Below are positions 2,806 to 6,086 of a stretch of DNA of 63,447 nucleotides, in pieces (position 1 is the first letter of the stretch; each line of letters starts with the position of its first letter). The notes under the pieces are model-generated. The model was not told where the DNA came from, made no database searches, and saw only the letters and a list, made by a program, of their open reading frames with translations. Where the stretch lies: NCBI GenBank assembly GCA_003152315.1, contig PLZV01000042.1, positions 1 through 63,447 on the forward strand, given 5' to 3'. The translations under genes and the position numbers were made by a program. The DNA is from Verrucomicrobiota bacterium (lineage in GTDB: Bacteria > Verrucomicrobiota > Verrucomicrobiia > Palsa-1439).

Positions 2806-3029
2806 CTTCGTTCCACTTGTAGCCAGCGAGGTAGATCGCGAGGAACGGTCCGACTCCCGTCTGGACGTCGGCAAGGAAAAAATTCAACCAATCCAGACCG
2901 CGCAGCGACTGCCGCGATGGGGACGTTTTGGTCTCGAGAGAATCAATCATCAAGCAGCGCTTTCACATACGGTCGCGGGACGTATAACACACGGGAAGTG
3001 GGTGCGCTATGGGAAAGCTGTTAGCGCGT
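2806..3029 (-). pseudogene. Truncated duplicate of the MFS gene 5' end (direct repeat, copy 2)
   Basis: On the minus strand this reads the same first 49 residues as the intact MFS protein (through K-W-N-E), then loses homology and soon stops. Upstream DNA to about 3029 also matches copy 1. Because all coding differences are synonymous, this copy appears to come from a once functional, diverged allele or paralogue and not from a recent internal duplication. The remaining DNA in 2632-2805 and 3030-3086 holds a G-run at about 2727 and a small palindrome at 3059-3075; no gene was seen there. Confidence 0.85.
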
Positions 3030-3086: not shown

Positions 3087-5219
3087 TTACGCGTTAGGTA
3101 CCTTGGTGCCGGGGGATGCACCAAGGGACAGGTAGACCCGTACGTATCGGTCCAAGAGGCGTCCCAGAACTTCGTCGGGAGCGTTGTGCTTCACTGGGTC
3201 GTTAAGTCTGTGAAGTTGGGAAGTCAGCCAATCAGCGGTCAGCTTGACTATTAGCTTATGGTGGCTGTAATAAATCTCACGAACCCAATCTAATTCCCTG
3301 CCTTTTTGCAGATCAGCTTGCGGCGATCTTGTGATTATGAAACCACAGTTTCCGTATTCTAGGGCAAGGTACGAATTCATCTGGCGGAATTCGGTGGGGC
3401 CCAAGTCGGTAGCGTAATTCTTCACTTCGAAGATGACCTGACTGGTAGAATACTGCTGCAGGATTCTTTTCCATGTGTCGGTTTCCCCAAGATTGGTTCC
3501 GACAATATCACGTCTCTGCGTAGCGTCTTTATTAGGTTTGAGTTGCAAGTTTCGCAGTGCACCGGCAAAAACAATCGTGAGAGCTGAATAGCACCATTCT
3601 TCGAATTTGTGCGCCCCACTATCTCCATCTGGTATTTCCTTGAGGGATTCGACTAGATTCGAGATGTTCTGGCGTCGAATTTCGGGAGTTTCAGAGGTGA
3701 CTTCGATATCGTATTCATCATTGATCTCTGCGGCTTCTTCGGGCTGAAGGATACTGCGGGTTAGATTTAATGCCATCCAGTAGCAAGGATGGATTAAGAG
3801 CTTAGTGTCCTTCGTGAACTCCAGATTGGGGGAATTGCCGTCATGACAGAATATAAAGCTAGCTCCAGACGGTCTTTGTAGACCCAAAAAACCAACACTG
3901 TAGAGGCCTCTGATTGCTTGTTCTGGGGACTTGAATATGGCCAAATCCTGCTGCTGTAAAGGAGCATGCTTGTCTGCCGAGAGGACGGCTTGGATGAGAG
4001 CACAAGCCTCTGTGTAATTTCGTTCGGGTGAGGCATTAGAGAAACAATTTACAAGTGGCTCTAAACCGGGAAATACGTATTTGTACTCCTTAAATAGATC
4101 ATCGAGGCGTGTCTGCGAGATCTCTTTGGCCGTTTGTTCAATGTCCTCATCCACAATGGCAGTTCGGCCTTGTGAGAGCGCCCGATAGAAGGCGTTATTA
4201 AGAAGTGATATCAAATCTCTGGGTCGGTACAATGTAAGTTGGAGACAGCGGCGAAAACCGTCTTTGCCCTGAAGGTTGCGTGCTGTGCACTTGTTCCATA
4301 CCTTCAGGTCTTCCTCGTCTGTGAATTTGAAGGCGACGCGGAGCCGGCTGCATATCATGCTGAACAGGTTGAATTCGTCCCAATGCAGCCTGAGCACTCG
4401 GCCTTCTATAGTGCGTGAGTAGTCTGGGTCGAGACGTGCCACAGCACGAAAAATGTTGTCTCGCAAAAAAACGAGAGTTTTGATATTTGGAAGACGCGCC
4501 TGAACGTCAATGGCCGCATGTATAATGCCACAGACAAGACCAATTCCGACTTGGTCGGGCTCGTATCCTTCATCTAGATCATCTATCAAAATGAAGAAAG
4601 GCTGCTGTGCGTCGGCAAGAGAGTGCTTCAGGGCAACTTCCAAGTCGGCAAGCTCAAGCTTGGTTGCGAGATCGGCAATCTGACCATCGAGATTCTCTGT
4701 AGAGCGTGGAATAGTTCTGAGGCGGGACCGTAGTCTGTCAGAAGCCGTATTCCCCGATGTCTTCCAAGCCCTCAGAGTCTCAATGAGAGGGCTCGAATGT
4801 GGGAGATTGGCGTACGTGTAGCCTTGGAAAATGTGAGTGGCTATTTCCATAGAGAGTGCGTAGCGCCAGGCAAGCCGGTAGTAAGCTCGGATGAGATTAA
4901 AGCGGGCGCCCAATGGATCAACGTATGGACGTAGACCGAGGATATCGATTTCCTCAGGGGCAAGTTTTAGAAGTATCAACTTGTCATCGGCAGTCCAAAA
5001 CTTGCCCAGACGATAAAAAAGAGCGCTTTTCCCGGTGCCTCTTCTTCCGACGGTGGTTGTATGATCGAGACCTACGGTCAAAGACTTGTATTCTGGTGTT
5101 TCAAAAAAGGCGACGTCCAACATTTTGGAGTCTCTCTCCGCGAGGAGATCGCCCAGGAGGGTCCTAGAAAGTAATGCGCTCGCTACCACGGTTTCTGAAT
5201 AACAGATTGTGGGTTCCAA
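3087..5219 (-). CDS. P-loop ATPase (Sll1717-like) with C-terminal PD-(D/E)XK nuclease-like domain
   Basis: A 710-residue protein. Walker A is GRRGTGKS (residues 58-65) and Walker B is FFILIDDLDE (208-217). A sensor-like FLRDN lies near 251 and an R-P-R-D-L-I-S-L-L-N motif near 332-341, the latter typical of the 'P-loop ATPase, Sll1717' group. The C-terminal part reads like a PD-(D/E)XK nuclease fold: K-F-E-E at 538-541, D571 (RRDIVG), then E598-V-K600 (FEVKNY). The gene stands alone, facing away from its neighbours and visibly richer in A+T than the surrounding genes, which suggests transfer. An NTPase-nuclease fusion of this kind could be a defence gene. That role is inferred; an uncharacterised ATPase is the safe call. 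Confidence 0.75.
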   Translation of the reverse strand: MEPTICYSETVVASALLSRTLLGDLLAERDSKMLDVAFFETPEYKSLTVGLDHTTTVGRRGTGKSALFYRLGKFWTADDKLILLKLAPEEIDILGLRPYVDPLGARFNLIRAYYRLAWRYALSMEIATHIFQGYTYANLPHSSPLIETLRAWKTSGNTASDRLRSRLRTIPRSTENLDGQIADLATKLELADLEVALKHSLADAQQPFFILIDDLDEGYEPDQVGIGLVCGIIHAAIDVQARLPNIKTLVFLRDNIFRAVARLDPDYSRTIEGRVLRLHWDEFNLFSMICSRLRVAFKFTDEEDLKVWNKCTARNLQGKDGFRRCLQLTLYRPRDLISLLNNAFYRALSQGRTAIVDEDIEQTAKEISQTRLDDLFKEYKYVFPGLEPLVNCFSNASPERNYTEACALIQAVLSADKHAPLQQQDLAIFKSPEQAIRGLYSVGFLGLQRPSGASFIFCHDGNSPNLEFTKDTKLLIHPCYWMALNLTRSILQPEEAAEINDEYDIEVTSETPEIRRQNISNLVESLKEIPDGDSGAHKFEEWCYSALTIVFAGALRNLQLKPNKDATQRRDIVGTNLGETDTWKRILQQYSTSQVIFEVKNYATDLGPTEFRQMNSYLALEYGNCGFIITRSPQADLQKGRELDWVREIYYSHHKLIVKLTADWLTSQLHRLNDPVKHNAPDEVLGRLLDRYVRVYLSLGASPGTKVPNA

Positions 5220-5345: not shown

Positions 5346-5567
5346 CTACCGCGTTGGCTGGGCGGTGGGGGGCTGGCCGCTGGAGCCTTTGGCGTGGGCT
5401 GGTTTGCCGGGCATGAAGTGGTTGCAGCCGCTATTGCCGGAGACCCGGAGTTTATACGGGAACAGTTTGTCATCGATACACAATCCCATCGTGGTGTTGG
5501 TTATAGATGCTTTCGGTTCGATCTGCCACCATTTGCAATCCTTGCACAATCCCCATTCGTTGCTCAT
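5346..5567 (-). CDS. Small four-cysteine protein
   Basis: A 73-residue protein with C8, C11, C30 and C48 in the pattern C-x2-C-x18-C-x17-C, and conserved-looking K-W-W and N-H-F-M-P-G segments. The cysteines could bind a metal. The start has a good ribosome binding site (GGAGA seven bases before the ATG). The tail after residue 60 is low complexity, rich in Pro, Ser, Gln and Thr. I recognise the general type from Verrucomicrobiota but know no function for it. Confidence 0.65.
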   Translation of the reverse strand: MSNEWGLCKDCKWWQIEPKASITNTTMGLCIDDKLFPYKLRVSGNSGCNHFMPGKPAHAKGSSGQPPTAQPTR

Positions 5568-5639
5568 GACGTTTCTCCGGTTTATTGGTTAATATTTTGA
5601 CCACTCTCCGCCGCGTGAGGGTTGCGCCGCCAGCAAACC

Positions 5640-5680
5640 CTCGGCGCGTCTCGTCAGACTCGGCTTGCGGCCTACAACGG
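5640..5680 (+). repeat. Dispersed repeat containing the core GTCTCGTCAGACTCGGCT
   Basis: One of about five intergenic copies of a module with the core GTC(T)CGTCnGACTCGGCT; the others are near 13446-13495, 50520-50605, 57006-57095 and 58085-58165. It sits between the four-Cys gene and the DUF202 gene. Confidence 0.6.
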
Positions 5681-5687
5681 CTGGCCA

Positions 5688-6086
5688 TTAGAAGTGTTTC
5701 TCCGCTACCAGCAAGTAAACAATCATCATCAGCGCGAGGAGCGCGACGCCGGCGGTCACCGCCACGATCAAACCACGATTGGCGCGCACTTCACCGCGTT
5801 CAATCGCCAGATTCACGAGGTGGTAGTGCCAGGCTGCGAGGATCGCGAGCGCGCCGCCCAGAGCCATCATGGCGATGCCCATCGGCAGGGACAGGCCCGT
5901 GCTGTGGACGGGCACCCCCGGGGCAAGGCTTGCGGAAAGTTCACGCAGCCAGACGCCGAACTTGGCGACGACAAAACCGAGACTGATGACCGCGATACTC
6001 GTCCTGATCCATGCCAGAAACGTGCGCTCGTTGGCGAGAAATTCCGACGCCCTTTTTTCGTCCGGTATTTTGGCTTTTACATGCAA
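5688..6086 (-). CDS. DUF202 (YidH-type) membrane protein
   Basis: A 132-residue protein with the family signature E-F-L-A-N-E-R-T-F-L-A-W-I-R-T-S near the N terminus, followed by three hydrophobic segments. DUF202 proteins are small inner-membrane proteins of unknown function. The best frame begins with TTG at 6086, with AAGG about eight bases upstream; an ATG four bases inside is out of frame. It shares the strand with the small proteins on both sides. Confidence 0.85.
   Translation of the reverse strand: MHVKAKIPDEKRASEFLANERTFLAWIRTSIAVISLGFVVAKFGVWLRELSASLAPGVPVHSTGLSLPMGIAMMALGGALAILAAWHYHLVNLAIERGEVRANRGLIVAVTAGVALLALMMIVYLLVAEKHF

Follow-up and report, generated by a model that had tools for sequence, protein, structure and literature searches.

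The window analysed here, a 63,447-nucleotide stretch from a Verrucomicrobiota bacterium (contig PLZV01000042.1), carries a gene whose product was initially annotated as a P-loop ATPase fused to a PD-(D/E)XK nuclease, and interpreted as either a single-gene defence system or a protein derived from a mobile element. What such a fusion protein does, and how it came to reside in this genome, are the questions raised by this locus. Our analysis of its domains, relatives and genomic contexts gave results that fit both halves of this initial interpretation and suggest that a defence role is likely. The gene proved to be a distant relative of tnpX of the transposon Tn1000 (gamma-delta), and on balance it is slightly more likely than not that both belong to a cross-phylum family of one-gene immune systems, not described before, whose origin-recognition-type AAA+ switch would drive a FokI-like nuclease.

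Domain architecture and active sites

The window protein (~700 residues) combines Walker A, Walker B and RPRD motifs with a complete C-terminal PD-(D/E)XK site (Table 1). The NCBIfam model for P-loop ATPases of the Sll1717 family (NF047389) matched it at 257.5 bits against a curated cut-off of 75, over residues 23-484 and model positions 2-454 of 454, which places the protein within this family; Pfam provided no good match to the protein, and the KAP NTPase model (PF07693) did not match it.

The motifs were evaluated in an alignment of 34 full-length sequences, comprising the window protein and 33 relatives. Walker A (GRRGTGKSA in the window protein, with K64 as its lysine), Walker B and R332-P-R-D335 were all located at the residues first assigned to them, and their invariance is beyond chance. 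The R-P-R-D motif is probably sensor-2-like, a role suggested by its position. The proposed nuclease pattern was retained for E540, D571, E/D598 and K600 (33 of 34 sequences each), and not for E541, the second glutamate of the original E-E pair, which varies among the aligned proteins. A relative from Photobacterium (L068:9992-12055) has an intact ATPase and has lost the entire nuclease active site (E540Y, D571T, E598N, K600Y, Q613S, Y617K). It is 68-70% identical to its sisters in the ATPase and 36-39% in the nuclease core, compared with 76% and 81%, respectively, between L059 and L060, a typical pair that is slightly more closely related. Because all of these residues were lost together in L068, they appear to behave as one functional unit.

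In the full-length structure model (pLDDT 83, pTM 0.71), residues 9-509 matched TnsC of Tn6677 (VchTnsC; Z 14.8), Cdc6/Orc1 (Z 14.3) and RdrA of RADAR (Z 12.7), and by comparison with Cdc6/Orc1 the linker region is predicted to be winged-helix-like. The nuclease domain, folded alone, was modelled as a helix-three-strand-helix-strand core; E540 belongs to the first helix, the second and third strands bear D571 and E598-x-K600, respectively, and Q613xxxY617 falls on a later helix. This predicted structure has the alpha-beta-beta-beta-alpha-beta core of PD-(D/E)XK nucleases, with the D and the (D/E)-x-K on neighbouring strands. Structure comparison with VIA-align identified FokI (Z 11.1, 155 residues aligned), Nt.BspD6I (10.9), LlaBIII (9.7), EcoT38I (9.1), MspJI (8.3), Shedu (8.0) and Avs4 (6.7), and almost all of the first 20 matches were PD-(D/E)XK nucleases. 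Foldseek returned nothing at E < 0.001 for this domain, with Shedu as its best match (3.1e-3), and a sequence search of solved structures with the protein and profiles detected no relative; the evidence for the fold therefore comes from structure comparison, as the VIA-align Z values, together with motif conservation. The predicted fold and active site of the ATPase-nuclease are well supported by these models, as the initial annotation had anticipated for its C-terminal domain. The resemblance to the FokI cleavage domain is one of fold; the window nuclease is only 12% identical to FokI, is not accompanied by the FokI DNA-recognition domain and has a wider spacing between the D and the D/E-x-K.

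Table 1. Features of the ATPase-nuclease gene and adjacent open reading frames, in window coordinates.
Feature	Position	Strand	Evidence or conservation
ATPase-nuclease gene	3087..5219	(-)	710 codons from TTG; whole-length homology to 33 relatives, 40-50% identity
P-loop ATPase core, initiator/STAND-like AAA+, residues 20-380	4080..5162	(-)	NF047389 E 2.8e-76; matches Cdc6/Orc1, TnsC, RdrA
Walker A GRRGTGKS, residues 58-65	5025..5048	(-)	Invariant, 34/34
Walker B D213-D-L-D-E217	4569..4583	(-)	D213, L215, D216, E217 invariant, 34/34
R332-P-R-D335	4215..4226	(-)	Invariant, 34/34
Linker region, residues 386-500, conserved FCHDG and HPCYW motifs	3720..4064	(-)	Alignment and structure model
C-terminal PD-(D/E)XK nuclease domain, FokI-cleavage-domain-like, residues 511-701	3117..3689	(-)	Model of domain folded alone, pLDDT 90.7; 1fok Z 11.1
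E540, first helix of nuclease	3600..3602	(-)	33/34
D571, predicted nuclease catalytic residue	3507..3509	(-)	33/34
E598-V-K600, predicted catalytic D/E-x-K	3420..3428	(-)	K600 33/34; residue 598 is E in 27, D in 6, N in 1
Q613xxxY617 motif	3369..3383	(-)	Q 33/34, Y 33/34
73-aa cysteine-containing ORF	5346-5567	(-)	Just upstream of ATPase-nuclease gene
DUF202-like ORF	5688-6086	(-)	Upstream of ATPase-nuclease gene

Genomic setting and horizontal acquisition

The contrast in composition first noted between this gene and its neighbours was evident in its GC content (49.2%) and in its GC3 of 0.517, the lowest among 38 long ORFs of the window (mean 0.71, sd 0.07). Its true start is uncertain, because the conserved part of the protein begins near residue 20; translation could start at the TTG (residue 1) or at a GTG (residue 11). 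Its orientation is isolated only in part, given two upstream ORFs on the same strand, one DUF202-like and the other encoding 73 residues. None of the genes directly next to the window copy was recognised as a known defence gene, and neither Tn1000-like tnpA and tnpR genes nor the 35-bp inverted repeats were found around it in the window.

The gene was absent from two genomes of the same genus. Synteny with the nearer of these was conserved on the right side only, from position 5704 onward, with the break beside the gene, and no exact empty site could therefore be drawn in the nearest genome. On the family tree, members from Verrucomicrobiota and Lentisphaerota required four label changes, at least two of which were forced, and so do not form one clade; the tree contains several long branches and does not settle the deep placement of the window gene. 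The lowest GC3, the same-genus absence, the synteny break and the scattered clades together indicate that the window gene was horizontally acquired.

The genome also encodes a second Sll1717 protein (G000:C34:30026-32431; NF047389 E 3.6e-97), the gene for which adjoins a ResIII/REase_I gene in divergent orientation. This protein has the same type of ATPase as the window protein but no nuclease domain, and its N-terminus weakly matches nucleoside-deoxyribosyltransferase/TIR-like domains. Because of this different N-terminus, the Sll1717 ATPase is seen to be used with different effector-like domains.

Several other features of the surrounding DNA were recorded. The 73-residue cysteine-rich ORF, a possible companion of the ATPase-nuclease gene, has just one further copy in the genome (G000:C34:28845-29063, 93% identical) and none in 56 related genomes; both copies lie at most ~1 kb from a gene for an Sll1717 ATPase. 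Directly adjoining the ATPase-nuclease gene, an S1/P1-nuclease-like gene (1564-2631) is bracketed by 221-nt direct repeats (1156-1376 and 2806-3026, 95% identical) that carry the 5' end of an MFS gene (47-1303). A short intergenic sequence (5609-5687), possibly a REP-like element, recurs at many sites in this genome and in a second one (G001).

Distribution of the family and its relative in Tn1000

Full-length relatives were detected in 198 plasmid records at a coverage of at least 80%, in two Klebsiella phages and on 11 viral contigs. An alignment scan of genome contigs recovered 34 loci from Gamma-, Beta- and Alphaproteobacteria, Verrucomicrobiota, Lentisphaerota, Omnitrophota, Acidobacteriota and Auribacterota; the genome contig scan with a single protein as the query returned nothing.

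An Escherichia coli relative, WP_000422420.1, is 43% identical to the window protein over its full length and is encoded on the F plasmid. Perfect copies (35/35) of the 35-bp inverted repeat of Tn1000 were located at both ends of a 5981-bp element that contains tnpA, tnpR and this gene, which is therefore tnpX, the third gene of Tn1000 and, among relatives with a name, the closest to the window gene. Full-length co-linear homology and the presence of both active sites place the window protein in the same family. The two proteins share the ATPase and nuclease sites, with D-A-K in TnpX at the position of E-V-K in the window protein; tnpX is part of a Tn3-family transposon, whereas no transposase of that type lies close to the window gene. 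PifA, considered as the identity of the F-plasmid relative, was rejected. This phage-exclusion protein is, like TnpX, a P-loop protein of the F plasmid, but it is a separate member of the KAP family (PF07693, E 3.2e-43) without significant sequence similarity to the ATPase-nuclease (E 0.11).

The location of tnpX between the inverted repeats, together with tnpA and tnpR, could indicate an accessory to transposition that regulates or targets the movement of Tn1000-type elements, comparable to TnsC (AAA+) and TnsA (nuclease) of Tn7, and TnsC of Tn6677 was indeed the best structural match of the ATPase. Nevertheless, this role seems unlikely. Among 52 loci examined, the gene lies in or beside Tn1000-like tnpA/tnpR only at the reference locus of the F plasmid and at four further loci of enterobacteria, and the window gene was not one of these; the family is therefore not tied to transposition. 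Moreover, Tn3-family transposition requires only TnpA and a resolvase, and in phage-plasmids and P2-like phages the gene occurs as solitary cargo.

Although Tn1000 has been studied for decades, the papers that we found name its third gene only as tnpX or 'putative protein X' (PMC6340991), and our literature search found none that names Sll1717 or gives tnpX a function. Of 5426 complete E. coli genomes, 127 contained a match to tnpX, among them those of DH5alpha, DH10B and F+ derivatives of K-12. If the proposed role is correct, these strains already carry a candidate defence gene, which could be a confounder in phage assays.

Many large plasmids of Klebsiella keep only a C-terminal remnant of the gene (residues 555-702), mostly unannotated (e.g., hits H77-H99).

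Mobile-element and chromosomal contexts

The gene is found 30-630 bp away from the portal gene in five P2-like viral loci (L076, L077, L078, L083 and L085), and in L076 and L077 part of the replication nickase gene flanks it on the opposite side. The interval between gpA and gpQ is the old/tin defence hotspot of P2-like phages (Rousset et al., PMC9122126; Vassallo et al., PMC9519451), and the site of the gene in these five loci is this hotspot. In a further P2-like locus (L084), the gene is found between baseplate and tail-terminator genes.

Klebsiella phage-plasmids of ~110 kb carry the gene at a fixed site of variable cargo between a DUF4942 gene and rnhA. This locus was matched by 705 records, but only 71 of them reached a coverage of 80% or more for the query with the gene; at the same site, others contain tellurite/colicin-resistance, Rha or restriction genes. 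The gene is thus swappable cargo at a fixed position, and such cargo sites hold non-defence genes as well. In a Vibrio phage-plasmid, it adjoins AAA and UvrD-helicase genes and an ABC-three-component system.

A C-terminal domain without the nuclease fold, or homologues that never associate with defence genes, had been named at the outset as results that would refute the interpretation, and neither appeared. The association was observed for relatives on mobile elements and not for the window copy, as cargo of Tn1000 and phage-plasmids and at the published P2-like hotspot. Around chromosomal copies, defence families accounted for ~10 of 102 nearest neighbours; of the two controls, distal genes gave ~7 of 97 and random genes at least 5 of 103, all counts being distinct proteins estimated from family tallies, and the random control happened to include a CRISPR locus. 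Next to the chromosomal copies, defence genes are therefore enriched at most slightly.

The presence of the gene on the F plasmid, resistance plasmids and phage-plasmids would also be consistent with competition between elements, in which the same switch-and-cut mechanism excludes plasmids or phage-plasmids and not lytic phages. We regard this as rather improbable, as the gene is also present on chromosomes of distant phyla, where no plasmid marker was noticed nearby, and the proposal differs from phage defence in its target only. A Cdc6/Orc-like ATPase-nuclease might otherwise serve the replication or repair of the cell or of the element, without a part in defence; the ATPase resembles Cdc6/Orc1, some Pseudomonas-type copies lie beside ribonucleotide reductase genes and the phage-plasmid copies are near rnhA. 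However, such a housekeeping role is very unlikely for a gene with a patchy, horizontally moving distribution and a foreign composition, which occupies swappable cargo sites and decays frequently, with frameshifts in L072 and L075, a truncation in L071 and the C-terminal remnants on Klebsiella plasmids.

Proposed function and comparison with known systems

Taken with the mobile-cargo contexts and conserved active sites, the domain organisation suggests a horizontally acquired, one-gene system directed against phages or other mobile elements, of the same family as TnpX. On the most likely reading, the protein would form a single-gene anti-phage system, with a phage trigger causing its AAA+ switch to oligomerise and thereby to activate the FokI-like nuclease. 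The N-terminal initiator/STAND-type switch would rest in an inactive, nucleotide-bound state until a phage trigger, protein or DNA, caused the ATPase to oligomerise. The FokI cleavage domain cuts only as a dimer; oligomerisation of the ATPase may likewise bring the C-terminal nuclease domains together, which would then cleave DNA, either that of the invader or, in abortive infection, that of the cell itself. We infer the trigger, the substrate and the oligomeric state by analogy with STAND and AAA+ proteins and with FokI dimerisation, and a literature search found no reported phage assay for any family member.

Comparison with characterised systems points to relatedness in parts rather than identity. 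The DS41_1_antiphage model (NF053860) matched 32 of the 34 members (best 3.6e-15), and DefensePredictor names DS-41 among its validated anti-phage systems. The match to the window protein was partial and reached 27.7 bits, far below the model's own cut-off of 370 bits; the ATPase is homologous to DS-41, and the members are thus relatives of this distinct system and not DS-41 itself. Avs4 (STAND/AVAST) and RdrA (RADAR) are comparable in their working, since both join a P-loop switch to an effector, and Avs4 also carries a PD-(D/E)XK domain; no sequence-level match of the window protein to STAND/AVAST or RdrA was detected. STAND/AVAST proteins are organised as an N-terminal effector, a STAND NTPase and C-terminal repeats, whereas the window protein is much shorter, with its nuclease at the C-terminus and no long repeat sensor or other repeat region after the ATPase. 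PADLOC 2023 contained no full-length model for the ATPase-nuclease.

Single-gene ATPase-nuclease defence proteins are a known kind; the main interest of these results is a testable role for the unexplained third gene of gamma-delta. Genes of the tnpX type turn up as cargo of phage-plasmids and at a known defence hotspot of phages, and they are spread over several phyla, so that this specific role becomes amenable to experiments in laboratory strains.

Three further observations concern individual relatives. The protein encoded at one locus (L005, in genome G039; 393 aa) pairs a Cys-rich, HNH-like N-terminus with the same type of C-terminal nuclease domain and matches the PADLOC candidate PDC-M36A. 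Two contigs of Acanthopleuribacter pedis (L048 and L073) contain identical 22,028-base stretches that include the relative, either because a large element was duplicated recently or because the assembly contains the stretch twice. Finally, a recurring site is suggested by the Pseudomonas-type loci L049, L063, L069 and L071, where the relative apparently follows nrdB in the same orientation at a distance of ~76-131 nt; these loci were assigned from ORF lengths.
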